A stretch of 39,388 bases of DNA from an uncultured Bacteroidales bacterium. GTDB taxonomy: Bacteria; Bacteroidota; Bacteroidia; Bacteroidales; Paludibacteraceae. The number at the start of each line of letters is the position of its first letter. Position 1 is the first letter of the stretch. The stretch covers positions 1 through 39,388 of the forward strand of contig ONMV01000012.1 of assembly GCA_900319005.1 (NCBI GenBank), read 5' to 3'. Below the pieces are notes generated by a model, which ran no database searches, was not told the origin of the DNA, and worked only from the letters and a program-made list of their open reading frames with translations. Shown here piece by piece: positions 20,060-37,743 of the stretch. The translations under genes were made by a program, and so were the position numbers.

Positions 20060-21472
20060 ATGGAACCTATTTATATAGCTGATTATAATTATCCGCTGCC
20101 GGATGAACGGATTGCAAAATACCCGTTGGCAGAAAGAGACAGTAGCAAGTTACTGGTTTATAAGCCTATCCCCGACCCCTCCCTAAAGGGAAGGGAGATA
20201 GAAAATGGACAAGGGGATAAAGGACAAGGGAGTATTTCGGAGGATAGGTTTTATAATGTGGGAGAGCATATTCTGCCAGAAGGACTCCTTATATATAATA
20301 ATACGCGCGTGATACAGGCGCGACTGGAGTTTCACAAGAAGCCCAAAAACGAGGGCTTGGTGGCAAATGGGGAAAGCATTTTGACAAATGGGGAAAGCAA
20401 TTTAAGAAATGGCGAAGTGAAACAGGGCGCACGGATTGAGGTGTTCTGCTTGGAGCCGTTAGAGCCGAGGGACTATCAGTTGTCGTTAGGCAGCACGAAA
20501 GGATGCGTGTGGAAATGTATGGTGGGGAATGCGAAGAAATGGCACACGGGCGATGCCCTTGAATTAAAAATTAAAAATGAAAAATTAAAAATTGCACTCC
20601 GAGTACATAAAGAAGAGGTATTGGGGAATACATATGCCGTGCGGTTTGAATGGGACGACGAGACGGTTTCATTTGCGGAGATATTGGATGCGGCAGGAGA
20701 ATTGCCGATACCACCTTATTTGAACAGGAAGACCGAGGAGTCGGATCTGAAGACGTATCAGACCGTTTATTCGCGGATCAAAGGATCTGTAGCCGCTCCG
20801 ACAGCAGGTCTGCATTTTACGGAACGGGTGTTGGAGGATATCCGCAAACGAGGGATTGAGACCGACGAAGTGACGCTTCATGTGGGAGCCGGGACTTTTC
20901 TGCCGGTGAAGACCGCGGACGCCAACGAGCATACCATGCACACAGAGATTATTGCCGTTCCGAAGAGCACTATCGAGCATATTATCGCGAAATTGGGAAA
21001 GATAGTGGCTGTGGGAACAACGAGTATGCGGACATTGGAGAGCCTATATTTCATCGGTAAGCAGATTGCCGATGAAAAAATTAAAAATGAAAAATTAAAA
21101 ATTACGAATTTGCATGTCGGGCAATTCGAACCCTATCAGGAAGGAAAAAGTACAAAGGAAATGAGTACCAAAGAGGCGTTGGAGGCGATAGTGGATTATT
21201 TGACGGAAACGGGACAGGAGACGCTGCATGCCGAGACACAGATCATGATCAAGCCCGGGTATAAGTTCCATTTGGTAGATCAGTTGATCACGAATTTTCA
21301 CCAACCGCAATCCACGTTGCTGCTGTTAGTGAGCGCTTTCGTAGATGGAGACTGGAAACGGATATATGAGTATGCGCTCGGGCATAATTTTAGATTCCTC
21401 TCTTATGGTGATAGTTCTATTTTAACAAAGGGAACTCGGCATGTATGCCGAGAGTTAGACAAGGAAATATGA
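20060..21472 (+). CDS. queA: S-adenosylmethionine:tRNA ribosyltransferase-isomerase QueA with several insertions
   Basis: QueA transfers and isomerises the ribosyl part of SAM onto preQ1 in tRNA, forming epoxyqueuosine. Family motifs are clear: LPDERIAKYPLAERDSSKLLVY, NNTRVIQARL, PTAGLHFTERVL, EVTLHVGAGTFLPV, NFHQPQSTLLLLVSAF and FRFLSYGDSS. At 470 residues it is over 100 longer than E. coli QueA. The excess sits in low-complexity insertions at about 36-57 (PIPDPSLKGRE, C-rich repeat relative), 96-121 (three 7-residue units NGESxLx), 168-178 (LKIKNEKLKI) and 337-349 (EKIKNEKLKIT). A C-terminal extension ends in RHVCRELDKEI over a palindrome. All are in frame and the catalytic motifs are intact. 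It overlaps tatD by 4 nt. Confidence 0.94.
   Translation: MEPIYIADYNYPLPDERIAKYPLAERDSSKLLVYKPIPDPSLKGREIENGQGDKGQGSISEDRFYNVGEHILPEGLLIYNNTRVIQARLEFHKKPKNEGLVANGESILTNGESNLRNGEVKQGARIEVFCLEPLEPRDYQLSLGSTKGCVWKCMVGNAKKWHTGDALELKIKNEKLKIALRVHKEEVLGNTYAVRFEWDDETVSFAEILDAAGELPIPPYLNRKTEESDLKTYQTVYSRIKGSVAAPTAGLHFTERVLEDIRKRGIETDEVTLHVGAGTFLPVKTADANEHTMHTEIIAVPKSTIEHIIAKLGKIVAVGTTSMRTLESLYFIGKQIADEKIKNEKLKITNLHVGQFEPYQEGKSTKEMSTKEALEAIVDYLTETGQETLHAETQIMIKPGYKFHLVDQLITNFHQPQSTLLLLVSAFVDGDWKRIYEYALGHNFRFLSYGDSSILTKGTRHVCRELDKEI
20165..20198 (+). repeat. C-rich repeat relative in queA
   Basis: ATCCCCGACCCCTCCCTAAA followed by GGGAAGGGAG forms a CCCTCCC/GGGAAGGG hairpin and is read PIPDPSLKGRE. It sits between LLVYK and GSISEDRFYN, which normally adjoin. 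Confidence 0.75.
20365..20420 (+). repeat. Tandem 21-nt repeat in queA
   Basis: AAATGGGGAAAGCA occurs at 20365-20378 and again at 20386-20399, with a diverged third copy from 20407 (AAATGGCGAAGTGA). The period is 21 nt, so every unit is seven codons (NGESIL, NGESNL, NGEVKQ). Confidence 0.85.
20562..20593 (+). repeat. AT-rich in-frame repeat, queA copy 1
   Basis: AATTAAAAATTAAAAATGAA and then AAATTAAAAATT is read ELKIKNEKLKI. The same family lies at 21073-21110, 21906-21940 and 37355-37387. Confidence 0.85.
21073..21110 (+). repeat. AT-rich in-frame repeat, queA copy 2
   Basis: This copy is almost identical to the one at 20562-20593 and is followed by ACGAATT. It is read DEKIKNEKLKITNL, inserted before the conserved LHVGQFEPY. 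Confidence 0.85.
21434..21453. repeat. Palindrome at the 3' end of queA
   Basis: CTCGGCAT and ATGCCGAG are perfect inverted repeats around a 2-nt loop (21435-21452). There is no T-run. It encodes part of a C-terminal extension beyond the usual end of QueA, so it may be another inserted element. Confidence 0.7.
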
Positions 21473-22320
21473 TCGATACACATTGCCATATTGATGAAGA
21501 GGCTTTTGCAGCGGATCGAGAAGAAGTGATTGCGCGGCAGAAAGCGGAAGGCGTGGAAGCGATGATCGTTCCGGGTGTGAACGCGGCATCCATTGAGACG
21601 GTCATGGATGTTTGTCATCGGCATCCCGGGTATTGTTATCCGGCTTTGGGTCTGCATCCGGAGGACGTGAAGGATAATTGGGAGGAAGAGTTGGCGAAAG
21701 TGGAAGCGGCTATCCGTGCACATCGGGAAGAATTAGTGGCGGTAGGCGAGATCGGACTTGATTATTATTGGGACAAGACGTACAAAGAGGAGCAGAAAGA
21801 GGTGTTAAGACGGCAGTTGTTGTTGGCAAGGGAACTGGATTTGCCGGTGATTCTGCATAACCGCGAGGCGACGGAGGACATCGTGCAGCTCGTACGGGAA
21901 GCCGCAAATGAAAAATTAAAAATTAAAAATTACGAATTAAAGCCGCTACGGGGCGTGTTTCATTGTTTTAACGGGAGTAAGGAGACGGCTATGCAGATAT
22001 TGGAGATGGGATTCTATTTGGGTATCGGCGGTGTGCTGACATTCAAGAATTGCAAATTGGGCGAACAATTAGCGGGAGTGAATGAGATTTTTCGAGATAC
22101 CGATATATCGAAAGATCGAAATATCGAAGGCGCGTTGATAGACCGTTTGGTATTGGAGACCGATGCACCGTATATGGCACCCGTTCCGCATCGCGGAGAG
22201 AGGAACGAAAGCCGGTTCATGAGGGGTGTGGTGGATAAATTAAGCGAGATACTGCACATAAGCGCTGAAGAGGTAGTTCAACGCAGTACAGCGAACGCAA
22301 GAAAACTCTTTTTTGCATAA
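21469..22320 (+). CDS. tatD: TatD-family metal-dependent hydrolase
   Basis: TatD proteins are TIM-barrel metal enzymes with 3'-5' DNase activity, among other roles. The 283-residue protein has MIDTHCHID at the start (metal-binding HxH, H5 and H7), the glutamate in VGEIGLDYYWD, the histidine in LPVILHNREA, the motif GVFHCFNGS and LETDAPYMAP with the last metal ligand. Residues about 146-157 (NEKLKIKNYELK) come from the AT-rich repeat and lie just before LRGVFHCF. The ATG at 21469 overlaps the queA stop by 4 nt. A longer start at 21445 would add eight residues not seen in the family. Confidence 0.94.
   Translation: MIDTHCHIDEEAFAADREEVIARQKAEGVEAMIVPGVNAASIETVMDVCHRHPGYCYPALGLHPEDVKDNWEEELAKVEAAIRAHREELVAVGEIGLDYYWDKTYKEEQKEVLRRQLLLARELDLPVILHNREATEDIVQLVREAANEKLKIKNYELKPLRGVFHCFNGSKETAMQILEMGFYLGIGGVLTFKNCKLGEQLAGVNEIFRDTDISKDRNIEGALIDRLVLETDAPYMAPVPHRGERNESRFMRGVVDKLSEILHISAEEVVQRSTANARKLFFA
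21906..21940 (+). repeat. AT-rich in-frame repeat in tatD
   Basis: AAATGAAAAATTAAAAATT followed by AAAAATTACGAATTAA is read NEKLKIKNYELK, in the same frame as the copies in queA and in the Xer gene. Confidence 0.85.
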
Positions 22321-22354
22321 ATATGCAAGGGATTTTGATTTTTATTGTCAATTC

Positions 22355-22386
22355 CTTGTGTATATGAAAATTTTTTAGTACCTTTG
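22355..22386 (+). promoter_or_regulatory. Promoter of rsfS-ftsH
   Basis: TTG at 22356-22358 and TACCTTTG at 22379-22386 with 20 nt between them. Transcription should start near 22393, leaving a leader of about 17 nt. The -7 box forms the left arm of the hairpin at 22381-22398. Confidence 0.8.
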
Positions 22387-22404
22387 CAGCCGCAAAGGTT
22401 TTTT
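22381..22404 (+). terminator. Hairpin plus T6 overlapping the rsfS promoter
   Basis: CCTTTGC (22381-22387), loop AGCC, GCAAAGG (22392-22398), then TTTTTT (22399-22404). It has the form of an intrinsic terminator for transcripts coming from tatD. Transcripts starting at the rsfS promoter would begin inside the hairpin and escape it. Confidence 0.65.
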
Positions 22405-22409
22405 ATTAT

Positions 22410-22775
22410 ATGAAAGAAATAAGTACAAAAAAATTACTGGATACGATTATCGAAGGTATCCGCAACCGAAAAGGACAACGTATTGTAACCATTGACTTAC
22501 GCAAGATCAAAGAGGCTCCCGTGGAGATGATGCTTATCTGCGAAGGACAGAGTAACACGCAGGTAGCCGCTATTGCGGACGAGGTAGATGATTTCGTTCG
22601 CACGCAGACACACGTACACCCGCTGAGTGTTGCCGGTGTGGAGAATGCCGAATGGATTGCCATGGATTATGGCACGATCTTTGTGCATATCATGCAACGT
22701 GAGCCCCGTGCTTTCTATGACATTGAGCATCTCTGGGCTGACGGGAAGATTACCGAGTTACCGGATATTTTGTAG
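22410..22775 (+). CDS. rsfS: Ribosomal silencing factor RsfS
   Basis: RsfS binds protein uL14 of the 50S subunit and blocks joining of subunits in starvation. The 121-residue protein carries the family motifs KKLLDTIIEGIRNRKGQRIV, MMLICEGQSNTQVAAIADEV, WIAMDYGTIFVHIM and REPRAFYDIEHLWADG. In Bacteroidota it is commonly followed by ftsH, as here. Its stop codon opens a TTTAGAGTTTAAAG repeat that fills the spacer. Confidence 0.95.
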   Translation: MKEISTKKLLDTIIEGIRNRKGQRIVTIDLRKIKEAPVEMMLICEGQSNTQVAAIADEVDDFVRTQTHVHPLSVAGVENAEWIAMDYGTIFVHIMQREPRAFYDIEHLWADGKITELPDIL

Positions 22776-22803
22776 TTTAGAGTTTAAAGTTTAGAGTTTA
22801 GAG
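22773..22803 (+). repeat. TAGTTTAGAGTTTAAAGT-type repeat between rsfS and ftsH
   Basis: Units AGTTTAGAGTTTAA and AGTTTAGAGTTTAGAG start at the TAG stop codon of rsfS and end 4 nt before the ftsH ATG. The word is related to the GTTTAAAGTTGAAAG family seen inside batE. Confidence 0.8.
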
Positions 22804-22807
22804 AAAC

Positions 22808-24853
22808 ATGGCGACAAAAAAGAAACAGCCAACACCGCAGCAAAATAACAATGATCAGCCAAGCGGTCCGAGACGATGGATGAGCATCCTCTTTTACACG
22901 CTTGCATTTGCGCTGTTGGGGTATTATTTCTTTGGCGACAAAGAGAATCAGGGTATTAGCAAAGAGTTGAGTTACACCAAGTTCACGGCGTATATCGAAG
23001 CTGACGCGATAGACAAGATCACAGTATATGACGATTTGAGTCTGAAAGCGAATGTGAAGCCCGCCAAGTACACCTTGGTGTTCAATTCACAAGGCGACGG
23101 CGAACAAGCGCGGGGACAATTGAAAGTGCAAGTGCCGTCGGTAGAGGAGTTTTCCAAATACATCGAAGGTGTGAACAGCGCGCGCAAGGAGAACGGGCAA
23201 GCCGCTATCGATGTGCGGTACGACAAATCGCACGATTATTGGTATCTGATTATCGTGAATATCCTTCCGTTCCTGCTGATCGTACTGTTTTTCGTGTACA
23301 TGAGCCGCGGAATAGGAAGTGCCGGAGGAGGTATATTCGGTGTGGGCAAGGCGAAAGCACAGTTGTTTGACCGCGATAAGAAAGACAAAGTGACGTTTGA
23401 AGATGTGGCAGGTTTGTATGGCGCCAAACAAGAAGTGCAGGAGATTGTGGAGTTTTTGAAGAACCCCAAGAAATACACAGAGATAGGTGCGAAGATTCCG
23501 AAAGGCGCGCTGCTGGTAGGCCCTCCGGGAACAGGAAAGACGCTGCTTGCCAAAGCTGTAGCAGGTGAAGCAGACGTGCCGTTCTTCTCGATGTCGGGTA
23601 GCGATTTTGTAGAGATGTTCGTTGGTGTGGGTGCGAGTCGTGTACGCGACCTGTTCCGTCAGGCGAAAGAGAAAGCTCCGGCTATCATCTTCATCGACGA
23701 GATCGATGCGATCGGTCGCAGCCGAAGCAAAGGTGTGATGACCGGTGGTAACGACGAGCGTGAAAGCACGCTGAACCAGTTATTGACAGAAATGGACGGA
23801 TTCGGAACCAACTCTGGTGTGATCATCCTTGCCGCTACTAACCGCGCGGATGTGCTGGATGCCGCCTTGCTGCGTGCCGGACGATTTGACCGACAGATCC
23901 ATGTGGAGTTACCGGATTTGCAAGAGCGCAAGGAGATTTTCCAAGTGCATCTTCGTCCGCTCAAACTGGATGAGACAGTAGATATAGATTTTCTGAGCAA
24001 GCAGACACCGGGTTTCAGCGGAGCAGACATAGCGAATGTATGCAACGAGGCGGCCTTGATAGCAGCTCGAGGCGGACGCAAGAAGATCAGCAAGCAGGAT
24101 TTCATGGATGCAGTGGACCGTATTGTAGGCGGTTTGGAGCGCAAGAACAAGATCATGACCGACGAGGAGAAGAAGTCTATTGCTTATCATGAAGCGGGTC
24201 ATGCGACAATCAGTTGGATGCTTCGTTGGGCGAACCCCTTAGTCAAAGTGACGATTGTGCCTCGCGGCATGGCTTTAGGGGCAGCATGGTATCTTCCGGA
24301 AGAGAGGCAGTTGACCAACGAATCGCATATTCTGGACGAGCTCTGTTCGTTACTCGGCGGTCGGGCAGCAGAGCAACTCTTCCTCGACCAGACATCGACG
24401 GGAGCGCTCAATGACTTGGAGCGTGCAACGAAACAGGCATATTCGATGGTAGCTTATTACGGTATGAGCGACAAACTGAAAGATATCAGTTTCTACGATT
24501 CCACCGGCCGTTACGACTACGGATTCGTCAAGCCCTATTCAGAGCAGACCGCCAAGGTGATAGACGAAGAGACCAAGCGTATCATCGCTGAGCAGATGGC
24601 ACGCGCCAAACAGATACTCACCGAGCAGTCCGAAGGGCATCATCAGATAGCCCAGTTGCTGATCGACCGCGAGGTGATTACCTCCGAAGATGTGGAACGG
24701 ATCTTAGGTCCGCGTCCGTGGAAGAGCCGCGGTGACGAGCTGTTAGAAGCCAACGCTGCCGAAACAAAAGAGGAGGGCAAAAAGACCAAACGCGCTCCGC
24801 GCAAAACGAAAAAAACAACAAATACAAATACGAATGAAGAAGTTACTGCTTAA
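22808..24853 (+). CDS. ftsH: ATP-dependent zinc metalloprotease FtsH
   Basis: FtsH is a membrane-bound hexameric protease for membrane and regulatory proteins. The 681-residue protein has two transmembrane segments (about 24-41 and 144-164) flanking a periplasmic domain. The AAA+ module has Walker A GPPGTGKT at 238-245, Walker [10 protein letters not shown] and the SRH region ([21 protein letters not shown]). The zinc site HEAGH lies at 461-465. The tail is rich in Lys and Thr ([17 protein letters not shown]). Its last 20 nt overlap the start of the M16 peptidase gene in another frame, so the two are probably translationally coupled. Confidence 0.97.
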
Positions 24854-27638
24854 CATCGCGCTGCTGTTCGCAGCGATGATGGTATCGGCGCAAGAAGCGC
24901 CGGAGAAACTGCCGATGGACCCGGAGGTTCGCTACGGCAAGTTAGACAACGGATTGACCTATTACATCCGTCATAACGAGCAACCCAAGCAACGTGCTGA
25001 GTTCCATATCGCGCAAGCTGTCGGAGCTATTCTGGAGGAAGACCACCAGAACGGTCTGGCTCACTTTCTGGAGCACATGGCTTTCAACGGAACACAGCAT
25101 TTCCCGGGTAAAGGGATCATCAATTATTTTGAGTCGGTAGGTGTTAATTTCGGCGGAAATATCAACGCTTACACCTCCATCGACGAGACCGTTTACCGTC
25201 TATCTGACGTACCGACCTACCGCGAAGGAATCGTAGATAGTGCCTTGCTGGTTATGCACGATTGGAGTTGCGGACTGCTGCTGTTAGACGAAGAGATCGA
25301 CGCTGAGCGCGGTGTAATTCTGGAGGAATGGCGTACCGGTCGCACGGCCAACCGCCGTATCTGGAAGAAGCTGAACGAGCTGATGTACCCGGGTACGCAG
25401 TACGCCAAACGCGATGTGATCGGCGACACGGCTGTGATCAATAATTTTGAGTATCAAGCCCTGCGCGATTACTATCACAAATGGTATGGTCCTGATAATC
25501 AGGCGATCATCGTGGTAGGTGATATTGATGTGAATGCCATTGAGGCGAAGATCAAAGCGCTCTGGAAAGATGTGCCTCGTCGTAAGAATTTCGGCGAGCG
25601 TCCCATCTACACGGTGAACCATAACGACAAGCCGTTAGTGGCAATCGTGACCGATCCCGAAGCGCAGGAGAGCCGTATTATGATGGAGTATAAATTCGAC
25701 CAACTGCCTGATGTCTTCAAGGGCACAGCGCAGGAATACATGCTGAACCTGATTCGCGATCTGGCGTGCGACATTCTCAATAACCGTTTCTCGGACCTTG
25801 TACTCAATCCGAACGCCTCTTTCGCCGGCGCATTCTGCCACTATGGCGAGACCGCCAAGAAAATGGACGCATTCCAAGTAACAATGGTTCCGAAAGCAGG
25901 CCGTGAGACGGAAGCGTATAACGACCTGATTTACCAATTGGAGAAAATGCATCGTTATGGTTTCACCAACGCTGAGTTAGAGCGCGTGAAGAACGACAAG
26001 ATGACCGCTATTCAGCAGGCATATAACGAGCGTAACACGCGTAAGAACATCAGTATCGCCCGCGAATGTATCCGCCATTTTGAGAACGGCGAATCAATGC
26101 CGGGGGCAGAATGGGAGTATGAGTTCGTACAAGCTACTCTGCCGCTGGTAAACCTCGATGCCGTTAACAGTGTCGGTCAATCGCTCGTCCATACGAACCC
26201 CACCGTAGCGATCGCAGGACCGGAGAAAGAGGGCATTCAGATTCCGAGCGAAGAGGCTATTTTAGCCACCTTGGCAGGTCAGACCGAATTGGCTATCGAG
26301 GCTCCGGTAGAAGAGGTGATTGACAGCGAGTTAGTGAAAAAAGCACCTAAGAAAGGTGCCATCAAGACCTTTGCGAAGAACGAAGGATTCGGATTCACGG
26401 AATGGACTTTGAAGAACGGCATCAAGGTGGTGATCAAACCAACGGATTTCAAATCCGACGAGATATTGATGCAGGCTTTCTCGAAAGGCGGTAAGACTCA
26501 AGTAGCTACCGAAGATCTGCCTTCGGCTGAGTTGGCAACGATGATTGTAGGTATGTCGGGTATCGGTCGTTTCACCGCTCCTCAGTTAGAGAAAGCGCTG
26601 TCAGGCAAGACCGTTTCCGTTAGTCCTGAGATTTCAGAGAACATCGAGCGGATTAATGGTTCTTCGTCCGTCAAGGACCTGGAGACCATGCTCCAATTGA
26701 CCTATCTGTATTTTACAGCTCCCCGCCGTGATGAAGAGGCTTATCAAACCACTCTCGCTCTGCTGCGCAACCAGTTGTCGAACCGCGATAAGAACCCCAA
26801 AGCAGCGTTCTCGGATTCCGTACAGATGATGAGCAGTAACCATTCGGAGCGTACGCTTCTCTTCAACAACGAGTTACTGGAGAAAGCTGATCTGGACAAA
26901 GCGCTGGAGATCTATAAAGCTCGCTTTGCCAACCCCGCGGACTTTACGTTCATCTTCGTGGGTAACATCAACCCGAACGACCCGAAAGTGCGCGATATGA
27001 TCTGCCAATGGTTGGGCGGTCTGAAAACTAAGAAGACCCGCGAGGAAGTGATTGACCATCACGTGACCGTAGCCCTGGGAATGCAGAAGAACTACTTCAG
27101 CCGCAAGATGGAGACCACCACTGCTTCCAACCGCATCCAATACACCTCATACGACATGCCTTACACAATGGCGAACGACCTGAACATGGAGATGATCGGA
27201 CGCATCTTGAGTACCCGTTATCTGGAGTCTATCCGTGAGCGTGAAGGCGGTTCGTACGGCGTAGGTACGTACGGTTACATGACGCCTCTACCGACACCGA
27301 GAGCCGGTCTGCTGATGCAGTTTGACACCGATCCGAAGAAACAGGAACGCTTGATGGAGATCATCCACGAGGAGATCCAAACGATCATTGAAAACGGTCC
27401 GCTGGAGAACGATTTGCAGAAAGAGAAAGAATCGATGCTGAAAGATTTTCAGGAGGATCTGGAGAACAACAAATACTGGACCTCTGCGTTGTACCAGTAC
27501 TATATGTACGGCATCAATAATATCCGCGATTACAAACCGGCAGTAGAGGCTATCACGGGACATACCGTACAAGAAACGCTGAAAAAACTCGTTTCTTCAG
27601 GAAATGTATTCGAGGTAGTGATGTTTCCGGAGAAGTAG
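24834..27638 (+). CDS. M16-family zinc peptidase (exported)
   Basis: This 934-residue protein has a signal peptide ([19 protein letters not shown]). The M16 active site HFLEH lies at 77-81, with a distal Glu in ERGVILEEW. Two repeated peptidase halves are seen, as in periplasmic M16B enzymes such as PqqL/YmxG-type proteins of Bacteroidota. The C-terminal half contains the RxxxGGSYGVG-like segment (REREGGSYGVGTYG). It probably degrades peptides in the periplasm. The substrate is unknown. It overlaps ftsH by 20 nt. After its stop comes a 14-nt repeat that runs into lpxB. Confidence 0.92.
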   Translation: MKKLLLNIALLFAAMMVSAQEAPEKLPMDPEVRYGKLDNGLTYYIRHNEQPKQRAEFHIAQAVGAILEEDHQNGLAHFLEHMAFNGTQHFPGKGIINYFESVGVNFGGNINAYTSIDETVYRLSDVPTYREGIVDSALLVMHDWSCGLLLLDEEIDAERGVILEEWRTGRTANRRIWKKLNELMYPGTQYAKRDVIGDTAVINNFEYQALRDYYHKWYGPDNQAIIVVGDIDVNAIEAKIKALWKDVPRRKNFGERPIYTVNHNDKPLVAIVTDPEAQESRIMMEYKFDQLPDVFKGTAQEYMLNLIRDLACDILNNRFSDLVLNPNASFAGAFCHYGETAKKMDAFQVTMVPKAGRETEAYNDLIYQLEKMHRYGFTNAELERVKNDKMTAIQQAYNERNTRKNISIARECIRHFENGESMPGAEWEYEFVQATLPLVNLDAVNSVGQSLVHTNPTVAIAGPEKEGIQIPSEEAILATLAGQTELAIEAPVEEVIDSELVKKAPKKGAIKTFAKNEGFGFTEWTLKNGIKVVIKPTDFKSDEILMQAFSKGGKTQVATEDLPSAELATMIVGMSGIGRFTAPQLEKALSGKTVSVSPEISENIERINGSSSVKDLETMLQLTYLYFTAPRRDEEAYQTTLALLRNQLSNRDKNPKAAFSDSVQMMSSNHSERTLLFNNELLEKADLDKALEIYKARFANPADFTFIFVGNINPNDPKVRDMICQWLGGLKTKKTREEVIDHHVTVALGMQKNYFSRKMETTTASNRIQYTSYDMPYTMANDLNMEMIGRILSTRYLESIREREGGSYGVGTYGYMTPLPTPRAGLLMQFDTDPKKQERLMEIIHEEIQTIIENGPLENDLQKEKESMLKDFQEDLENNKYWTSALYQYYMYGINNIRDYKPAVEAITGHTVQETLKKLVSSGNVFEVVMFPEK

Positions 27639-27640
27639 TT

Positions 27641-27668
27641 GACAAATGAGAATAGACAATTGAGAATT
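27641..27668 (+). repeat. Tandem 14-nt repeat between the M16 peptidase gene and lpxB
   Basis: GACAAATGAGAATA and GACAATTGAGAATT are 12/14 identical and directly adjacent. The last two bases are the first two bases of the TTG start codon of lpxB. Confidence 0.85.
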
Positions 27669-28764
27669 GGCTAAATACTTTATCATAGCCGGTGAAGCAT
27701 CGGGAGACATCCATGCAGCTGAGTTGATCAAGCAGATTCAGTTAAAGGATTCCCGGTCACAATTCATAGGACTCGGTGGCGACCAAATGGTCGCTGCCGG
27801 GTGTCGTATTTATCAGCATATACGCCATATGGCATTCATGGGCTATGTTGCCGTGCTACGTAATCTCGGTCAAGTACGCCGAAATTTCCGAATAGCGGAG
27901 CAGGCCCTGATGGCAGAACAACCGGATGTACTGGTTTTGATTGACTACCCCTCTTTTAATCTGCGGATGGCTGCTTTCTGCCGCAAACATCTGCCACACA
28001 CAAAGATCTACTACTATATTCCCCCGAAAGTTTGGGCATGGAAGAAAAGGCGTGTTCACCGCATTGCCCGTCTATGCGACGAGGTATTAGGTATTTTCCC
28101 GTTTGAACCGGCATTCTACGCCCGATACGGGTATCACTGCACATATGTCGGTCATCCGACAGTGGAGGAGATGGGAAGGATGAAGGAGGAAAAGGAAAGG
28201 AAGAAGATGATTGCTCTTCTGCCGGGTTCGCGTCCGAGCGAGATCACTCATTGTTTGCAGACGATGTTAGCGGCAGCCAGACGTTTTCCGGAATACCAAA
28301 TCGTAGTTAGTGCAGCTCCGGGCATAGAGGACTCCTTCTACACCCCCTATCTGCAGGAAACGGAGAGATTGACGCGTGACACCTACTCTGCCGTGCAGCA
28401 AGCTTCAGCAGCTGTGGTCAATTCAGGAACCGCAACGCTCGAGACCGCCCTGCTCGGCTGCCCGCAAGTAGCAGTATATCATCTTGCATACTCCTGTCTT
28501 CTGCGATGTATCAAATGGGCAAAACCGCTCATTTTCTCCATCCCCTATTTCACACCGGTCAATATCATCTCCGGCAAAGAGATCATCCGCGAATGTGTGG
28601 CATATGATTTCACGGAAGCGAAGGTATGCGCAGAATTACAACGAATACTGACCGATGAGGCGTATAAAAAAGAGATGCTCGCCGAATACGAACATCTCAT
28701 TACTCTTTTGGGAACGCAGCCCGCTTCCGAGACAGCAGCCCGCATCATCACATCGAGACCATAA
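27667..28764 (+). CDS. lpxB: Lipid-A-disaccharide synthase LpxB (TTG start)
   Basis: LpxB joins UDP-diacylglucosamine and lipid X to the disaccharide of lipid A. The 365-residue protein has the family motifs KYFIIAGEASGDIHAAEL, FIGLGGDQM, MAFMGYVAVL, LIDYPSFNLR, YYYIPPKVWAWKKRR, FYARYGYHCTYVGHP, LLPGSRPSEI and SGTATLE. The only possible start near the conserved N-terminus is TTG at 27667, because an in-frame TGA lies two codons upstream and no ATG follows until far into the protein. The start codon is partly made by the upstream 14-nt repeat. The 3' end overlaps the convergent gene at 28748 by 17 nt. Confidence 0.94.
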   Translation: MAKYFIIAGEASGDIHAAELIKQIQLKDSRSQFIGLGGDQMVAAGCRIYQHIRHMAFMGYVAVLRNLGQVRRNFRIAEQALMAEQPDVLVLIDYPSFNLRMAAFCRKHLPHTKIYYYIPPKVWAWKKRRVHRIARLCDEVLGIFPFEPAFYARYGYHCTYVGHPTVEEMGRMKEEKERKKMIALLPGSRPSEITHCLQTMLAAARRFPEYQIVVSAAPGIEDSFYTPYLQETERLTRDTYSAVQQASAAVVNSGTATLETALLGCPQVAVYHLAYSCLLRCIKWAKPLIFSIPYFTPVNIISGKEIIRECVAYDFTEAKVCAELQRILTDEAYKKEMLAEYEHLITLLGTQPASETAARIITSRP

Positions 28765-29768: not shown

Positions 29769-29771
29769 GGG

Positions 29772-31148: not shown

Positions 31149-31152
31149 ATAT

Positions 31153-31713
31153 TTATTTTACTTGCTTTAACCAAATAATATAGACATAGGGGGTAACGGA
31201 CATCTCATCCTCGTTAAACCCCTGCTTACTCGGAACAATGATCTCGCATTGCGAGTCCGGATATTTCATCAGCCTGATGGCCTCTTGCCATCCGATGGAT
31301 TCACAGATCTTACCGCTTCCGCTGACCGGTCCGTAAACGAACTCAAACGGAGCGGGGGTATCATTCGTGTTCCAATAACTGAGTGTATCTGCTCCTTCCT
31401 CCAGTTGGAATTTCTTATATCGCGTCACAACGATATCATTTATTTTTACTTCGCGTGTCGAATCGCCTCGCCGGATGAGATGGAAATAGAGGTCGTCATA
31501 ATTTCCGTATCTTCCTTTGGGCACTTTATAATAATCCTTTTCTCCCCAGACATCGTTTTCGGGCAGTTCATAGATTATATTCAACTGATTACGATGAATA
31601 AAGGACCCTATCAATCCGTCTTCACGGCTACGCAAAGAGGAATACGTATTAGCGCTACATCCTGCGATGAGCAACCCGATAGTTATTAATAAGAAAAAAG
31701 ACAGTTTTTTCAT
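31153..31713 (-). CDS. Lipoprotein, DUF4827-like (FKBP-like fold suspected)
   Basis: This 186-residue protein starts with a lipoprotein signal (SFFLLITIGLLIAGCSAN, Cys near 19). The body contains YYKVPKGRYGNYDDLYFHLIRRGD and ends in VTPYVYIIWLKQVK, similar in outline to the FKBP-like lipoproteins of Bacteroidales and to its upstream neighbour. The DUF4827 assignment comes from memory and order of genes. The catalytic status is unknown. One nucleotide or less separates it from the gene at 31714. Confidence 0.75.
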   Translation of the reverse strand: MKKLSFFLLITIGLLIAGCSANTYSSLRSREDGLIGSFIHRNQLNIIYELPENDVWGEKDYYKVPKGRYGNYDDLYFHLIRRGDSTREVKINDIVVTRYKKFQLEEGADTLSYWNTNDTPAPFEFVYGPVSGSGKICESIGWQEAIRLMKYPDSQCEIIVPSKQGFNEDEMSVTPYVYIIWLKQVK

Positions 31714-32229
31714 TTATCTGATGTTCAATTCAATAATTACATTCTCATAAGGCGGGATATAATCCGTACCCTTTATTCCATAAGCGGCATACCAAGGTGC
31801 AAACATACGCACTTTGGCGCCGTGATTCCATTCCGTGATGTTCTCATCGACAGCAGCAGGCAGTTCGTATTTGCCTATCCGCGCCGTGAGATCGCTATCC
31901 AAGTATCTTTTTCCGGCGAGGCTGAACACCGTCATATGCAGCAGACACTCCTCTCCTGCCAAGACCGGCTGATCCGTATCGCCTTTTTCCACCACGTAAG
32001 CCCAGACACCTCGCTCGTACAACGCGTAGGGATCCTCTTGCTGCAGCGCCAAATGATGTAACTGTTCATCTGCCGCTTGCGCCAACTGCTGGTTCATCTC
32101 CATGAGTGCGATTGCAGTCGAATCGGCTTTCGGAGCCTCTCCTTTGCGCTGAGAAGGACGTTGCGGTGCAGTACCATTACACCCCGCTACCAGCAGCGCT
32201 ACGATAATAATCCATCCGTATTTTCTCAC
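31714..32229 (-). CDS. FKBP-type peptidyl-prolyl isomerase-like lipoprotein (GTG start)
   Basis: This 171-residue protein has a lipobox (WIIIVALLVAGC) and a C-terminal FKBP-like domain (GEECLLHMTVFSLAGKRYLDSD, MFAPWYAAYGIKGTDYIPPYENVIIELNIR), like the GldI-type proteins of Bacteroidota. It probably assists folding of envelope proteins. Several residues of active FKBPs are not obvious, so the isomerase activity is uncertain. The start is GTG at 32229, overlapping the TGA of the sensor gene as GTGA (4 nt), which points to coupled translation. Confidence 0.82.
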   Translation of the reverse strand: MRKYGWIIIVALLVAGCNGTAPQRPSQRKGEAPKADSTAIALMEMNQQLAQAADEQLHHLALQQEDPYALYERGVWAYVVEKGDTDQPVLAGEECLLHMTVFSLAGKRYLDSDLTARIGKYELPAAVDENITEWNHGAKVRMFAPWYAAYGIKGTDYIPPYENVIIELNIR

Positions 32230-35200
32230 TCTCCCAAACGTTTTTTACGGTATTCACTGGGGGTGAGACCATAGGTATTCTTGAAGCACTTGGAGAAATA
32301 ACGGCTGTCGTTCATACCTACCATATAAGTCACCTCGGTGATGTTATGCGAGCGGTCCTCTAATAATTGCGCTGCACGCTTGATACGCATCTCACGGATA
32401 AACTCCACCGGACTCAAGCCCGTCATGCTCTTCAGTTTGTTAAAGAACACGGTACGTCCCATACCCATCTCATCCACCAGTTCATCTACCGTCAGCGTAT
32501 TGTTATCCATCTGCTTATCCATTATATCCAGCAGTTTGGCAAGGAAGGTATCACCAGGAACAGGTTCGTCTGCCTTTGGCGGTTCAAGGCGCATCAGACG
32601 TTGCCGATAGCTCTGTTCCAACTGAGAGCGCTGGGTCAGAAAATTATGCACACGTGCACGGATGTACTCCGGTTCAAAAGGCTTGGTGACATAATCATCC
32701 GCTCCGCATTGCAATGCCTGCAAACGACTTTCAATAGCCGTCTTGGCTGTCAGCAGAATGACCGGAATAAAATCCGTATCGGTATTCCCTTTGATAAACT
32801 GTGTCAACTCCAAACCATCCACCTTCGGCATCATTAGATCAGTGATCACCAAGTCTATCTGTTTGGTACGAATGATTTGTTCTGCCTCTTCGCCGTCTGC
32901 AGCCGTCTCTACTGTATAATCGCGGCCTAACACACCGGCTAGAAACTGACGCATATCCTGATTATCATCCACTACCAATACCGTGTGACGATTATCATTA
33001 CGATCCTGCGCCAATTGGTCTAATTTATCCTCCAGGCTGGTGTTGTAAGTTTGCTGTTTCATAGTGGGAGCATCGGTTAAGAATTCCACTTCATCTCCGA
33101 AATGCTCTTTGCCGGTATGCAGCAGGATGGTAATGGTCGTTCCTTTCCCCACTTCGCTTTCCACCTCTATATGACCGTGATGCAGATCCACCAACTCTTT
33201 GGTCAGGTTCATACCGATTCCCGTTCCGGTCGTATTCAGGTTATTCAACTCATTATTACTGGAGAAGCGTTCAAAAAGCACGTTCCGTTTCTCGGGGGGA
33301 ATACCGATACCCTCATCTTGCACGGAAAGCGTAACAAAACCCGGCTTTGAATCCACGATAACATGAATATTCTTCCCTGCCGGAGTAAACTTAAAGGCAT
33401 TACTCAGCAGATTCCAAAGGATTGTATCCATCCTTCCGCGGTCCACCCAAACGGTAGAATCCTCCGCCTTGCATTCCACAGTGAAATGGATATGCTTGTC
33501 ATAAGCCTCTTTCTGGAAATTAGCACAGGTCTCGTTCACCAGTTCGCTCAGCAGTGTCGGTTGCACTTTGAGTTTCATCTTCTGGTTTTGCACTTTGCGG
33601 AACTCCAGCAACTGGTTGATCATGCGCAGCATCCGCTGAGCATTATTCTGCACTATTTCCAATTGACTGCGTACACTCTGACTGATACGCTCGGTCTGCA
33701 GAATATTGTCTATCGGACCGGTGATGAGGGTCAACGGAGTACGAAGTTCGTGGCTGATATTCGTAAAGAAACGCAGTTTGATATCCATCACCTGTTGCTC
33801 CACTTTCACTTTCTGACGCAGCCCGTTATAGACACTCACGATATACACTGTCATGCCTATAATCAGCACTGCTATAACAACATACAACACAAAAGCCCAC
33901 CATGTCAGCCACCACGGACGCTCTACGTAAATGACCAACTGTTTCTCATTATCCACATCACCGCCTTCACGGTTGGTAGAACGAACCCGGAAGATATAAC
34001 GGCCATATCGCAGGTTACTATATGTCACACGGCGGACATCACGCGCATAGTTCCAGTCGGCATCGATCTTCTCCATCTTATAGGAATAAAAAATCCTATC
34101 CGCTCCGATATAATCCATTGCCGCATACTCAATAGTCACGCTGCTCTCGTCGGCTATATGTATCGTATCGCCTTCCAACTCTTGTCCCTGCACTTCGATT
34201 CGGGTGATATGCATCGGAGGCACCGAATTGGAACGGCTGATCAAGGATGGGTCAAATGCACAATAACCATTTGAGTAACCGAAAAGAATAACTCCATTGG
34301 GGGTTCGTAAAGCCTCTGCTTCCGTAAAATAACTGTCTTTCTGCCCGTCTAATGCATCGTAATAATAGATATCATGCGTATCCAAATCCCATTGAGCGAT
34401 GTCACTCTCCGTACAGAACCATAAGTTCCTTCCATCGCCCGTCATACTCAAGATGATATCATGGAACGTCTCAACACGTGTTATCTCACCTTTCGGGTCC
34501 TTGGGGTCCAACATCATCAGACCGCCGCCAAAAGAGCCCAGCCACAAACGGTTGTGGCTATAATAAATAGCACGGATATCATAGCTGGGAAGAACAAGGC
34601 TCTCGTTCGTGTTCAAGTTCACGCGCATAACACCCGTTGTCGTTCCACACCACAGCATATCATCCACAATCTCGATGTCACGCACTTTCATGCCATTACC
34701 CACAACAATAGGTTTCTCCCATTGATGGGAACCCTCGTTCCAACGGATAATATTCACGCCGCCACCATAGGTTGCCACATACAATGTGCCATCCCGGCCC
34801 TCTTCTATATCGTATATATCCGAATGGGTGGTTGGAATTGTCTGGTTCTTTGTTTTGTTAATCAGTCCATGCCCCTTCGTTCCATACAGCATGCCATGTT
34901 GAGTCTCCAGCGCACAATAAACGCTCGTCTCCGATTTGATGAGCGTCAGTACTTCTCCGTTCTTCCTGCGCGCAAAGGCACGAACCTCGCCGTTTTCACG
35001 TACTGAATGACGCATGTCGTAAAGCTTATACGGAGTTGGATCCATACTCACACAATCCACTCCGCCGTCATACGTCGCCATCCACATCTGTCCGTCGCGA
35101 TCCATATAAGCCGTGTGAATCATATTCGTCAGACCCTCTATCGGATAGACCAACTCATCCTTTTCGTAGTCATAATAGCTCCATCCTCCGCCGGTCGGGT

Positions 35201-35780
35201 TAACCCAAGTACGTCCTTGCTTATCTTCCAACAAGAAGAAATGCTGACGAAGCCGTCCTGCGTACCGGCTATCCAAAGGAGGAGTGAAGCGCTTCCATTG
35301 ACCAAAACGGTAACGCATGATTCCGTTCGCATCGTCTGTCTGCCAAATCACACCGCGCGAATCCACTTTTGTATTCTTATCCGCCTCGCTCATCTTCGAT
35401 AACATACCCTCAGGAAGGCTGTCGTATGGCTGCTCCGTCGTCACTTTGCGTGCGGCATCCAAACGATAGAAATGACCATCGTAAGTCCCCCACCATATCC
35501 GCTCCGATTCATCTTCAAAGATTATATCCACACGATTGTTCACATGAGCCTCAACACCATTATTCATCGCCTTATAAACCTTAAAGGTATATCCGTCAAA
35601 ACGATTCAACCCTTCCCATGTGCCGAACCACATAAAACCTTGGCGATCCTGAAGAATCGCCATAACGGTGTTCTGACTCAGTCCGTCTTTGATGGAGTAA
35701 TGTTGAACCACATAGTGCTCATGTGCCTGCGCGCACAAGACCCACATACAGCAGAGAAGCAGAGAATAGAAACGCCTCAT
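32226..35780 (-). CDS. Hybrid two-component system sensor/regulator (HTCS)
   Basis: This single-chain signalling protein of 1184 residues starts with a signal peptide (RFYSLLLCCMWVLCAQA). A periplasmic sensor of two-component propeller repeats follows (DGLSQNTVMAILQDRQGFMW and similar, about 25-540), then a Y_Y_Y domain (about 555-625) and one transmembrane helix (about 632-655). The histidine kinase has SHELRTPL with phospho-acceptor H677 and an HATPase domain with DEGIGIP and GTGIGMNL. The receiver has phospho-acceptor D981 in ITDLMMPKVDG, and a C-terminal AraC helix-turn-helix follows. Such proteins in Bacteroides usually control polysaccharide loci, but no susC/susD pair is visible here. 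Upstream is rfbA, 43 nt away, and downstream are two lipoproteins. Confidence 0.95.
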   Translation of the reverse strand: MRRFYSLLLCCMWVLCAQAHEHYVVQHYSIKDGLSQNTVMAILQDRQGFMWFGTWEGLNRFDGYTFKVYKAMNNGVEAHVNNRVDIIFEDESERIWWGTYDGHFYRLDAARKVTTEQPYDSLPEGMLSKMSEADKNTKVDSRGVIWQTDDANGIMRYRFGQWKRFTPPLDSRYAGRLRQHFFLLEDKQGRTWVNPTGGGWSYYDYEKDELVYPIEGLTNMIHTAYMDRDGQMWMATYDGGVDCVSMDPTPYKLYDMRHSVRENGEVRAFARRKNGEVLTLIKSETSVYCALETQHGMLYGTKGHGLINKTKNQTIPTTHSDIYDIEEGRDGTLYVATYGGGVNIIRWNEGSHQWEKPIVVGNGMKVRDIEIVDDMLWCGTTTGVMRVNLNTNESLVLPSYDIRAIYYSHNRLWLGSFGGGLMMLDPKDPKGEITRVETFHDIILSMTGDGRNLWFCTESDIAQWDLDTHDIYYYDALDGQKDSYFTEAEALRTPNGVILFGYSNGYCAFDPSLISRSNSVPPMHITRIEVQGQELEGDTIHIADESSVTIEYAAMDYIGADRIFYSYKMEKIDADWNYARDVRRVTYSNLRYGRYIFRVRSTNREGGDVDNEKQLVIYVERPWWLTWWAFVLYVVIAVLIIGMTVYIVSVYNGLRQKVKVEQQVMDIKLRFFTNISHELRTPLTLITGPIDNILQTERISQSVRSQLEIVQNNAQRMLRMINQLLEFRKVQNQKMKLKVQPTLLSELVNETCANFQKEAYDKHIHFTVECKAEDSTVWVDRGRMDTILWNLLSNAFKFTPAGKNIHVIVDSKPGFVTLSVQDEGIGIPPEKRNVLFERFSSNNELNNLNTTGTGIGMNLTKELVDLHHGHIEVESEVGKGTTITILLHTGKEHFGDEVEFLTDAPTMKQQTYNTSLEDKLDQLAQDRNDNRHTVLVVDDNQDMRQFLAGVLGRDYTVETAADGEEAEQIIRTKQIDLVITDLMMPKVDGLELTQFIKGNTDTDFIPVILLTAKTAIESRLQALQCGADDYVTKPFEPEYIRARVHNFLTQRSQLEQSYRQRLMRLEPPKADEPVPGDTFLAKLLDIMDKQMDNNTLTVDELVDEMGMGRTVFFNKLKSMTGLSPVEFIREMRIKRAAQLLEDRSHNITEVTYMVGMNDSRYFSKCFKNTYGLTPSEYRKKRLGE

Positions 35781-35785
35781 AGTAT

Positions 35786-35825
35786 AACAATTTAACGGCT
35801 TAACAATTTAACAATTTAACGGCTT
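35786..35825. repeat. Microrepeat AACAATTTAACGGCTT between rfbA and the HTCS gene
   Basis: A full 16-nt unit AACAATTTAACGGCTT (35786-35801) is followed by a half unit AACAATTT and another full unit (35810-35825). The last unit reaches into the stop codon of rfbA (35826-35824). The spacer is therefore almost entirely repeat. Confidence 0.85.
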
Positions 35826-36696
35826 ATCCTTTAGCTGCCAAACGCTCCAGATAGCGGCCATAAGCTGTCTTCATCTCCTTGCCCAATGCCGCCAACTGCT
35901 CTGTACTGATCCAGCCGTTACGCCAAGCGATCTCCTCTATACAGCTCACATAGAATCCCTGACGGTTCTGAATAGTAGCAATGAAATTGCCGGCATCCAG
36001 CAAACTGTCACAATTACCGGTATCCAACCATGCAAAACCGCGGCTGAAGAGTTTCACTTTCAGCGTCCCATCCGCCAAATAGAGCTTGTTCAAGTCCGTA
36101 ATCTCATATTCACCGCGCGCACTGGGCTGCAAGTTTGCCGCTTTCTCGCAAACGGTCTTGTCGTAGAAATACAGACCCGGTACCGCATAATTGCTCTTCG
36201 GTTCTGCCGGCTTCTCCTCCAGACTCAGCACTTTTCCTTCCTCGTCAAACTCGACTACGCCGTAAGCACGAGGATCAGCTACCTCATATCCGAAGATACA
36301 AGCACCTCCGTTCTTCACGCTATCAACAGCATCCTTGAGCATATGACCGAAATGCTGACCGTAAAACATGTTGTCGCCGAGAATCAAACAACCCGCTTCG
36401 CCATTCAGGAACTCACGACCTAAGACAAAAGCCTGCGCCAAACCATTGGGAACCATCTGCACTTTGTAACTCAGCTTCATACCAATCCGGCTGCCGTCAC
36501 CTAATAACTCCTCGAACATCGGAAGGTCACGCGGAGTACTGATCACCAGCACTTCACGAATGCCCGCCAACATCAATGCGCTCAAGGGATAATAGATCAT
36601 CGGCTTGTCATAAACCGGCATAATCTGCTTGCTGATTGCTTTACTCAAGGGGTACAACCTCGTTGCACTCCCCCCCGCCAAAATGATTCCTTTCAT
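35824..36696 (-). CDS. rfbA: Glucose-1-phosphate thymidylyltransferase RfbA
   Basis: RfbA makes dTDP-glucose, the first step to dTDP-rhamnose. The 290-residue protein has the nucleotide-binding start KGIILAGGSATRLYPLSKAI, SKQIMPVYDKPMIYYPLSALM, the sugar-binding LILGDNMFYGQ, the motif GVVEFDEEGKVLSLEEKPAEPKSNYAVPGLYFYD and the C-terminal FAWLDTGNCDSLLDAGNF. It stands alone here without rfbB, rfbC or rfbD, so the other steps must be encoded elsewhere. It is the first gene of a long minus-strand series and has a clear promoter. Confidence 0.95.
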   Translation of the reverse strand: MKGIILAGGSATRLYPLSKAISKQIMPVYDKPMIYYPLSALMLAGIREVLVISTPRDLPMFEELLGDGSRIGMKLSYKVQMVPNGLAQAFVLGREFLNGEAGCLILGDNMFYGQHFGHMLKDAVDSVKNGGACIFGYEVADPRAYGVVEFDEEGKVLSLEEKPAEPKSNYAVPGLYFYDKTVCEKAANLQPSARGEYEITDLNKLYLADGTLKVKLFSRGFAWLDTGNCDSLLDAGNFIATIQNRQGFYVSCIEEIAWRNGWISTEQLAALGKEMKTAYGRYLERLAAKG

Positions 36697-36724
36697 ATGC
36701 TTTGTTCCTTATTGACTAATTGCT

Positions 36725-36741
36725 TCCGGTTACAAACCGGA
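36725..36741 (-). promoter_or_regulatory. Leader hairpin of rfbA
   Basis: TCCGGTT and AACCGGA pair perfectly around the 3-nt loop TGT in the 50-nt leader of rfbA. On the plus strand the same hairpin is followed by ATTTTT, but no plus-strand gene needs it. It could stabilise the mRNA or affect translation. Confidence 0.55.
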
Positions 36742-36752
36742 TTTTTCGGCTG

Positions 36753-36784
36753 CAAAGGTACAACAATTTTTCCACATGTGCAAA
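36753..36784 (-). promoter_or_regulatory. Promoter of rfbA
   Basis: On the minus strand TTTG (36784-36781), 20 nt, TACCTTTG (36760-36753), with transcription expected from about 36746. The palindrome CACATGTG (36773-36780) lies against the -33 box, and ACACATGT recurs at 36813-36820. These could be operator sites. Confidence 0.8.
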
Positions 36785-36819
36785 TTTTGTGGAAAAATAA
36801 TCGCAAAAAATTACACATG

Positions 36820-37743
36820 TTATTTTTTTGCACGGGGATGGGTCTGCATATAGACGCGTTTGATCTGCTCGAAGGTGGTGTGAGTATAGATGGACGTAGT
36901 GCTTAACGAGGCATGCCCCAATAGGGTCTGAATAGTTCGTATATCCGCTCCGTTATCCAACATCGTGGTAGCAAAAGTATGTCGCAGCACATGCGGAGAA
37001 TGTTTCTTGAGCGTACTCACCTCCCCCATCCGTGTACGTACGATCGTGTATAAGGTGTTTTTGGTCATCGCCACTATCTCGCCGGACTTGGAGCGTTTGA
37101 CAAAGAACGTCGGCGATTCCCTGATGATTTCTGCGCGCACGGAGAGATAGTCGAGTATCTGATGAATGAGGTGTTCCCCTATCGGCACGATGCGCTCTTT
37201 GCGACGCTTACCGAAGATACGTACCTGTCCCTTCGACAGATCCACATCAGCATCCGTCAATCCCAGCAGCTCCGCCTGACGCATACCTGTCTGATAGAGC
37301 ATCTCTATAATCAGGTTATCACGTAGCGCCTCGAAATGATCATCCGCGCCGCATTCGTAATTTTTAATTTTTAATTCGTAATTCTTCTCCGCCGCCTCCA
37401 TCTCCTCTTGGCGAAAGAAGACCGGGAGAGGTTTATCCGCTTTCGGGGGGATAATACGCGCCGTGATATCTTTCTCCACACAACGCTGACGAAGAAGAAA
37501 CCGGTAAAAACTGCGGAGTGCCGACAGACGCCGCTTGACCGAACGTGGTTTCTGATGCTGATTCTCTATCATATCCAACATCCATGTTTTCACGTCGGTC
37601 TCATCTACACTCTTCGGATCGAAGTCGTCCGTCTGGCACCCTATAAAACGACAGAAATCCCGCAGATCATCGCGGTATGCCTCCACCGTCCGCGGGGAGT
37701 ACTTACGCTCTATGGCTATATAATCCAAGAAATGCTGAATCAT
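36820..37743 (-). CDS. xerC: Xer-type tyrosine recombinase
   Basis: This 307-residue recombinase resolves chromosome dimers at dif. The N-terminal SAM-like domain begins MIQHFLDYIAIERKYSPRTVEAY. The catalytic residues are complete: R155 (GMRQAEL), H251-x-x-R254 (SPHVLRHTFA), H277 (LLGHASLSTT) and nucleophile Y286 (SIYTHTT). XerC and XerD cannot be separated by eye. Residues about 119-131 (NYELKIKNYECGA), in the linker before the catalytic domain, come from the AT-rich repeat. The start at 37743 fits the family. An upstream ATG at 37791 would add 16 residues and overlap the ATPase gene. Confidence 0.93.
   Translation of the reverse strand: MIQHFLDYIAIERKYSPRTVEAYRDDLRDFCRFIGCQTDDFDPKSVDETDVKTWMLDMIENQHQKPRSVKRRLSALRSFYRFLLRQRCVEKDITARIIPPKADKPLPVFFRQEEMEAAEKNYELKIKNYECGADDHFEALRDNLIIEMLYQTGMRQAELLGLTDADVDLSKGQVRIFGKRRKERIVPIGEHLIHQILDYLSVRAEIIRESPTFFVKRSKSGEIVAMTKNTLYTIVRTRMGEVSTLKKHSPHVLRHTFATTMLDNGADIRTIQTLLGHASLSTTSIYTHTTFEQIKRVYMQTHPRAKK
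37355..37387 (-). repeat. AT-rich in-frame repeat in the Xer gene
   Basis: On the minus strand GAATTACGAATTAAAAATT and then AAAAATTACGAATG is read NYELKIKNYECG. It is the reverse-oriented copy of the repeat in tatD and queA, matching the gene direction, so the same reading frame is used. Confidence 0.85.

Follow-up and report, generated by a model that had tools for sequence, protein, structure and literature searches.

In-frame tandem arrays of 7-bp repeats occupy loops of conserved enzymes in an uncultured Bacteroidales bacterium, where they have probably spread by copying and recombination and been filtered for an open, mostly hydrophilic reading frame. The stretch under analysis, called the window, comprises 39,388 nucleotides (GenBank assembly GCA_900319005.1, contig ONMV01000012.1), and includes four such arrays of an AT-rich type in queA (two copies), tatD and the gene of a Xer tyrosine recombinase. 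The arrays have a clear period, show a bias in frame and orientation, are absent or replaced in relatives, and give way to different repeat families at matching loops. The source genome (G000), which holds the window contig, is a draft of 2,183,908 bases in 41 contigs, 85% complete, from a Paludibacteraceae-like Bacteroidales. Among the QueA relatives, the named records belong to uncultured Bacteroidales and Paludibacteraceae; many of their titles carry names of rumen or gut samples, and most are metagenome-assembled genomes. In this genus, housekeeping proteins seem to be undergoing remodelling by repeat DNA.

Heptamer arrays in queA, tatD and xer

A sequence-only reading of the window had described four AT-rich copies of one word in these genes, and they are present at the positions that it gave, within a few bases (Table 1). 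Their repeat unit is the heptamer AATTAAA in tandem, for which Tandem Repeats Finder (TRF) returns a period of 7, with the variants AATGAAA and AATTACG, and AATTCAA in relatives. The word is in excess, as the same reading had anticipated: AATTAAAAATTA occurs seven times in the window, against none in 100 dinucleotide shuffles and none in the reversed control. Two overlapping pairs are among the seven, and a further copy, near 14677, lies apart from those in the four gene arrays.

The four copies had been read in a single frame as variants of KLKIKNYELK. One of the three sense frames is indeed open, and it is the frame used, but the queA copies read KNEKLKI and not KNYELK. Likewise, insertion in any other frame or direction was expected to break the gene; this is correct for the sense frames, whereas both queA copies have one open antisense frame, coding a hydrophobic peptide of the IFNFSFLIF type. 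The earlier idea of a proliferating element or mutational process filtered for one frame is kept as a spreading repeat or mutational process filtered in linkers, and loses the single ten-residue microrepeat. The AT word is one of several dialects in a 7-bp repeat system whose many units include AATTNNN, GGACAAA, TACACCR, CAACTTT and TCAGACR, and which is accompanied by GC palindromes and longer composites.

Stop codons and the interrupted array

Since 7 is not a multiple of 3, a long pure AATTAAA array has TAA in every frame and on both strands. Its codon series (ATT AAA AAT TAA AAA TTA AAA) contains one TAA per 21 bases in any frame, and a coding copy must therefore carry a stop-proof unit at that phase. 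The coding copies carry AAT-GAA, AAT-TCA or AAT-TAC in place of AAT-TAA, corresponding to the units AATGAAA, AATTCAA and AATTACG.

The effect of this triplet was counted in 40 arrays of the form ATTAAAAAT-NNN-AAATTAAAAATT from two genomes, namely all 20 arrays of G035 and 20 of the 71 of G068 (from the first 22 listed, two being skipped, one with TAA and one with TAC). Location within an open reading frame (ORF; in these counts, a stop-to-stop frame of at least 120 codons) was found for 0/12 arrays with TAA, 11/12 with GAA and 7/12 with TCA, while the rarer triplets gave 1/1 for TTA, 0/2 for TAC and 0/1 for GCA. All but one of the 19 in-ORF arrays read I-K-N-x-K-L-K-I. The 18-mer AATGAAAAATTAAAAATT, which is found at 96 places in 26 genus genomes, was examined at 30 of these places (one in the source genome) and at all 16 places outside the genus. 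It lies in an ORF with its A-rich strand as sense at 26 of the 30 genus loci, compared with 2 of the 16 outside (Fisher p = 1.2e-6), and at 8 of 8 places in the source genome.

AATGAAA is absent from all 12 AATTAAA-type intergenic arrays listed for the source genome, and is present in two arrays of another type. As the AATGAAA form is almost confined to ORFs in the genus, random insertion from the intergenic pool followed by filtering fits the AT type poorly. The pattern points to coding copies that derive from other coding copies, through gene-to-gene copying, or that change after insertion. The stop-phase triplet also toggles between relatives: in another gene, the source genome has TCA (L232), while G079 and G099 have GAA (L261 and L257, respectively). 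A more far-reaching idea, put forward tentatively, is that the AATGAAA-interrupted array might be a minimal selfish coding cassette, a transposase-free mobile peptide (IKNEKLKI) that moves from gene to gene and from species to species by template switching or short-tract conversion.

Abundance, period and location of the arrays

In the source genome, AATTNNNAATTNNNAATT has 295 matches, against 34 for the backward pattern; the range in 36 other genus genomes is 0-301. AT arrays are common in the class, and the source genome is rich in them, its 171 matches to four-unit AATTNNN (11 for the control) being the highest count among 247 class genomes. A self-match scan of 381,236 bases for periods 2 to 30 yielded 49 arrays at period 7, 26 at 14, 10 at 21, 11 at 11 and 8 at 8, period 28 also being raised, while one dinucleotide shuffle of these bases gave no array at any of the periods. 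Period 7 is also found in G034, G035 and G079, and weakly in G009; in G028, six stretches (120,000 bases) contain no period-7 array.

Since AT-rich arrays are the most frequent kind, and since the assemblies are drafts, the arrays could be suspected of being low-complexity loops produced by chance or composition, or artefacts of assembly. This is scarcely credible, given the empty shuffled sample, the 295 matches against 34 in the reversed control and a codon-shuffle z of 18 (see below). Plain composition bias is rejected by the shuffles and the reversed-pattern control, and assembly error by the recurrence of identical sites in separate assemblies.

A census of 737,595 bases of the source genome, of which 597,045 lie in called genes, found 91 arrays of 22-68 bases; the Xer and RlmL arrays of the window scored below the cut-off and are not among them. 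Called genes hold 31 arrays (0.052/kb) and the remaining DNA 60 (0.427/kb), an eight-fold higher density. The proteins concerned, named by Pfam matches, include MurG, a Mur ligase, RsmH, seryl-tRNA synthetase (SerS), UvrA and a DapA-family protein, as well as radical SAM (with a TRAM domain), GH32, DUF1015, UbiA and MatE proteins.

Orientation and hydropathy were analyzed for 30 of the 31 in-gene arrays, L192 being left out because of stops in its reading. The used reading is more hydrophilic than the antisense one in 26 of the 30 (mean -0.96 vs. +1.09). Eight arrays have two or three open antisense frames, so that stops would be no bar to the other direction, and in each of them the more hydrophilic direction is the one used. 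Three T-rich in-gene readings lie, by eye, at apparent signal peptides (L198, L263, L297).

The same loops in relatives

The closest relative in the alignments is G079 (the contig that also carries L028; its Xer row is L159), which is colinear with window positions 18716-37743. Among the matches to relatives, internal stops occur in 23/93 for RlmL and 2/101 for TatD. QueA has four sites that vary among relatives, and the most distant rows are without inserts. The AT-type residues are absent from the five most distant QueA rows (L101, L102 and L104-L106; 50-53% identity; two titled Paludibacteraceae), an outcome in favour of the sequence-only reading, which had proposed this check. That reading also took all four copies for in-frame insertions. 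At matching loops, arrays are mostly absent or replaced by other repeats; yet the queA 21076 and tatD copies are common to the window and G079, and the queA 20562 and Xer copies are, relative to G079, loop replacements.

In the second loop of queA, L028/L029 have LPGPPLKGRE in place of the array, the replacing DNA in G079 being a GC palindrome, and an identical or similar AT-type segment is found in L034, L040, L038/L111, L085/L122 and L030. The third-loop copy is shared with L028/L109, L028 having TCA where the window has GAA, and other rows show different residues or a gap. The tatD copy is shared with L028/L109 and L029, and appears as NEKLKIKNEE in L069/L128; related AT-type segments are found in L131, L038/L111 and L125, with other residues or a gap elsewhere. 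The Xer array is missing from L159, where the loop differs, and, in this form, from 28 other rows from other genomes. As a separate observation, a repeat coding PTPxxVLRxxTGxxIEQSSSPxKGGE occurs in two different QueA loops of the close relatives L028 and L029.

A 70-bp block of queA (20534-20603) matches L034 and L040 exactly, while the flanks of L034 match at only 74/109 and 82/112 positions. L056, which is 95.6% identical to L034, is without the block. This sharing with a diverged lineage is best read as short-tract exchange. Further, the rlmL/queA junction is spanned in L055 and L056, but not in L034 or L058, by a 57-nt array of AAATGACC-type units, which gives RlmL a different end and places the QueA start inside the repeat (MVNDQMVNKPL). 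An array adjoining tatD differs by 14 nt, or two units, between L042 and L044 (96.6% identical). The 12 close locus pairs that were compared showed replacements, composites, the 57-nt junction array and the two-unit length change. Clean insertion was seen at few sites.

On a QueA tree of 79 rows, from which poorly filled loop columns were omitted, the AT cassette requires at least five changes, three of them forced by starred branches; the label was one regular expression matched anywhere in queA (six rows), which misses looser copies. As 72 of 500 shuffles equal the fit, the cassette is patchy and not clustered.

Heptamer signature and interchangeable repeats

Loop segments of at least 27 nt were taken from QueA (90 rows), TatD (78) and RlmL (58), rows being dropped for internal stops, low score, short length or identical sequence. 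This gave 193 segments, and 124 after removal of similar ones. Identity at lag 7 is 0.401 in these 124 segments, whereas 300 rounds of shuffling the codons inside each segment give 0.287 (z 18.3), and conserved regions of these genes give 0.252. Identity is likewise raised at lags 14 and 21, at lag 8 less so (0.333, z 6.6), and lag 11 is not raised in the 124 segments. Without the AT-type segments, 119 remain and the lag-7 z is 15.9. Across many species, the loops of these enzymes retain the imprint of heptamer repeats, mostly in worn form.

Unrelated repeats can occupy one and the same loop. In the source genome, the MurG linker is GVKSQESGVK and the TRAM-domain loop is KGQGTKDKGQ; matched by eye, the former is GIKNEKLKIKN in G357 and the latter IKNEKLKIKN in G378 and G035. 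The TatD loop has KLKIKNYEL in the window and NDQSPITNDQSPIANDQSPMT in L073. Such different repeats at matching loops favour permissive sites over a needed peptide.

In an AlphaFold model of QueA (45 sequences, mean pLDDT 75), the first two variable segments are low-confidence turns between strands, ELKIKNEKLKI forms two strands and a turn, and the last variable segment lies at a helix end. The KLKIK-type segments might accordingly be kept for a role, for example as a β-hairpin that aids binding or stability, and the repeated occupation of loops, with the cassette at one site in several species, would agree with this. Nevertheless, the loops are filled by unrelated repeats (LPGPPLKGRE, GVKSQES, KGQGTKD, NDQSPIT) or are short in relatives, as would be expected of tolerance and not of need, and an adaptive role is very improbable.

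Origin and spread of the arrays

The reading favoured here, spread by copying and recombination with filtering in loops, would work as follows. Arrays of 7-bp units would be created and moved at a high rate in the genus, most landing between genes. They would originate by polymerase slippage, of which the 14-nt difference between L042 and L044 may be one direct trace. Inside genes, arrays would persist where surface loops are permissive or, in the opposite reading direction, where they form part of a signal peptide, selection retaining a stop-free frame and usually the orientation that codes hydrophilic residues. The repeat itself could carry coding copies from one gene to another, by recombination or template switching, while recombination in the conserved flanks could bring them to other species, so that the loops of housekeeping enzymes would be repeatedly overwritten with repeat DNA. 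Ectopic copying would be the route into genes, and the arrays would be nearly neutral for the host.

A simpler alternative is pure local slippage, in which every array expanded locally from a chance seed in an already variable loop, without copying, and selection kept the open ones. In its favour, polymerase slippage has been proposed for heptamers, which are reported to outnumber all other categories of long repeats in most genomes (Mrazek 2007, as summarized in PMC4679880), and a copy-number difference of 14 nt is seen between close loci. Unit sharing within the genome is also only modestly above that between genomes: in a comparison based on 87 period-7 arrays, it amounts to 21.7% of array pairs within the source genome, 11.9-18.7% between genomes and 8.5% for random units. 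As proof of copying, genome-specific unit dialects are therefore weak. However, arrays that grew independently would be expected to differ more in their units and in how they escape stops, and the recurrence of one interrupted array, with an identical single-base stop-phase change, in many different genes of the genus counts against it; the 70-bp queA block common to a diverged lineage is also better read as exchange. Local slippage by itself is, thus, unlikely.

A mobile element of the Rickettsia palindromic element (RPE) or miniature inverted-repeat transposable element (MITE) kind, with defined ends, moved by a transposase and inserted in frame, is less probable still. It would agree with the many dispersed in-frame copies in conserved genes, with the GC palindromes that are also in frame in genes (five of seven matches to one pattern) and with four short hairpins in an insert of RsmH. 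Against it, the arrays vary from 22 to 68 bases, have no fixed ends and differ in their units, and no transposase is linked to them, though none was searched for.

Several points weigh against copying and recombination with filtering. The value of 0/12 for TAA is largely a consequence of the genetic code, which is not the case of the GAA row, and the comparison of GAA (11/12) with TCA (7/12) is based on a small sample. The ORFs behind these and the 18-mer counts are plain stop-to-stop frames, and some of the 30 genus loci of the 18-mer are orthologous sites and hence not independent. Genes were called by a home-made codon-usage program instead of a standard caller; it missed the window ORF at 10694-12034 and shortened other window ORFs. 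In four of the 30 in-gene arrays, the used reading is not the more hydrophilic one. The backward control is larger than the AATTNNNAATTNNNAATT count in 11 of the 61 genomes searched, and four-unit AATTNNN occurs in 126 of the 247 class genomes: arrays as such are, therefore, not specific to the genus, and only the bias towards ORFs, tested with one word, looks so. Identity at lag 7 reaches at least 0.6 singly in only 14 of the 124 loop segments, so the signal emerges from pooling; the solved MurG structure 1f0k has a linker longer by a few residues, and the array there is not necessarily an addition; and loop confidence in the QueA model is low. None of the 12 close locus pairs shows an AT array inserted into a gene interior between near-identical alleles, and several differences between relatives are block replacements. 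Unit sharing within the genome may speak for copying over local slippage, though weakly. Finally, no enzyme came to light for the arrays, and neither target-site duplications nor terminal inverted repeats were noticed in the aligned inserts, where no systematic search was made.

With 7-bp repeats in the loops of core enzymes in many of its genomes and a visible solution to the stop-codon problem, the genus offers a natural experiment on how loops are acquired and how selection acts on raw repeat DNA. As AATTNNN matches range from 0 to about 300 within one genus, the question of why bacteria favour 7-bp repeats becomes testable. In practice, loop sequences in these bacteria would be poor phylogenetic markers and possible pitfalls for annotation.

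Other repeats in the window and genome

Further arrays are listed in Table 1 with the four AT-type copies. A partly palindromic second repeat, CCCCACCCCAACCCTCCCCACAAGGGAGGG, lies at window positions 3206-3240, 4454-4488, 7367-7401 and 8524-8558; it is in frame as PPQPSPQGR in two genes, with a degenerate copy in a third. The GC palindrome pattern has seven matches in the census sample, five in called genes and two outside. Compared with 1wg8, RsmH (L021 16552-17766) has some 67 extra residues following FGGGGHSRAIL; this insert consists of a heptamer array followed by four short hairpins (by eye) with two copies of GAACAGGACAAAGAAG.

An intergenic 11-bp tandem repeat, TCACCCACTAA, is found at window positions 19959-20000; in the source genome only periods 7 and 14 are commoner than period 11, which ranks first in the G009 stretches. 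A long CAG/CAA tract inside a gene (7851-8006) codes a glutamine-rich segment. Lastly, a dispersed word containing TGCAAAGGTAC lies on both strands, outside called genes or at gene ends, and may be a promoter-region motif of Bacteroidetes.

Table 1. Repeat arrays and dispersed words in the window.
Feature	Position	Strand	Basis or comparison
Heptamer array, queA second loop, ELKIKNEKLKI	20561..20593	+	TRF period 7
Heptamer array, queA third loop, KIKNEKLKITN	21076..21110	+	TRF period 7
Heptamer array, tatD loop, NEKLKIKNYELK	21906..21941	+	TRF period 7
Heptamer array, xer tyrosine recombinase linker, KNYELKIKNYE	37353..37387	-	TRF period 7
63-nt in-frame composite, queA first loop: GC palindrome and GGACAA-type heptamers	20165..20227	+	clean insertion vs. 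G079
21-bp repeats in queA, ANGESILTNGESNLRNGE	20364..20416	+	TRF; missing or unrelated in relatives
Degenerate 7-8-bp repeats in rlmL, ESLKVKNERSRKTKVESRK, between first domain and THUMP	18884..18946	+	27 nt longer than G079; variable RlmL region
Second heptamer array in rlmL, ELKVESLELKEVESRK	19602..19654	+	TRF; second variable RlmL region
AAAGTTG array, start of TPR/SH3 protein gene	9996..10027	+	TRF
Intergenic AGTTTAG array, rsfS-ftsH gap	22774..22803	+	TRF; matching array in G079 stretch
Intergenic TAATGAA array	3534..3563		TRF
TGCAAAGGTAC word	814-849, 16589-16623, 16728-16763, 18598-18632, 22356-22390, 36747-36780, 38912-38931

Comparison with known repeat systems

RPEs are described in PMC10969869 as dispersed repeat DNA found in frame in many unrelated genes, about 150 bp long and forming ten families, each coding a conserved peptide. 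The likeness in outcome claimed by the sequence-only reading is upheld: here, too, repeat DNA stands in frame in unrelated conserved genes, and relatives lack it or vary. By that description, the arrays differ in being tandem, 22-68 bases long, without fixed ends and, in the AT type, without a palindrome; they also have many units, and different families take matching loops in different species.

Besides this reported abundance of heptamers, coding DNA is expected to favour units divisible by three (Mrazek 2007, as summarized in PMC4679880). According to PMC4692102, heptamers lack a detailed literature; it describes G-rich heptamers of Xanthomonas and Nostoc that are over-represented between genes, under-represented in coding regions and linked to G-quadruplexes. 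The present arrays resemble heptanucleotide simple sequence repeats (SSRs) in having a 7-bp tandem unit above expectation (49 arrays vs. 0 in shuffled DNA) and a higher density between genes. They differ from the G-rich heptamers, as far as these are described there, in being mainly AT-rich, with many units, a third of the arrays in called genes and a stop-proof coding unit.

Another parallel is offered by the TAACTGA arrays of Beggiatoaceae, Cyanobacteria and some Bacteroidetes, which, according to PMC4679880, have one fixed unit and lie mostly just upstream of start codons. They have stops in all three forward frames, some are nevertheless in ORFs, including a MurG near its end, and within proteins they succeed for the most part near the periphery; the authors also consider whether the arrays are mobile and pass from lineage to lineage. 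Shared with them are the heptamer arrays, the stops in all frames and the presence of some copies within ORFs, while the arrays in this genus have many units, occupy interior loops of conserved enzymes and show a frame and orientation bias. The TAACTGA doublet is absent from both strands of the 737,595-base sample. Among the titles and abstract openings covered, no report was found of in-frame heptamer arrays in housekeeping enzymes of Bacteroidales, which does not prove their absence from the literature. As DNA, the arrays are heptamer SSRs; they depart from the description of RPEs and yet resemble them in outcome.

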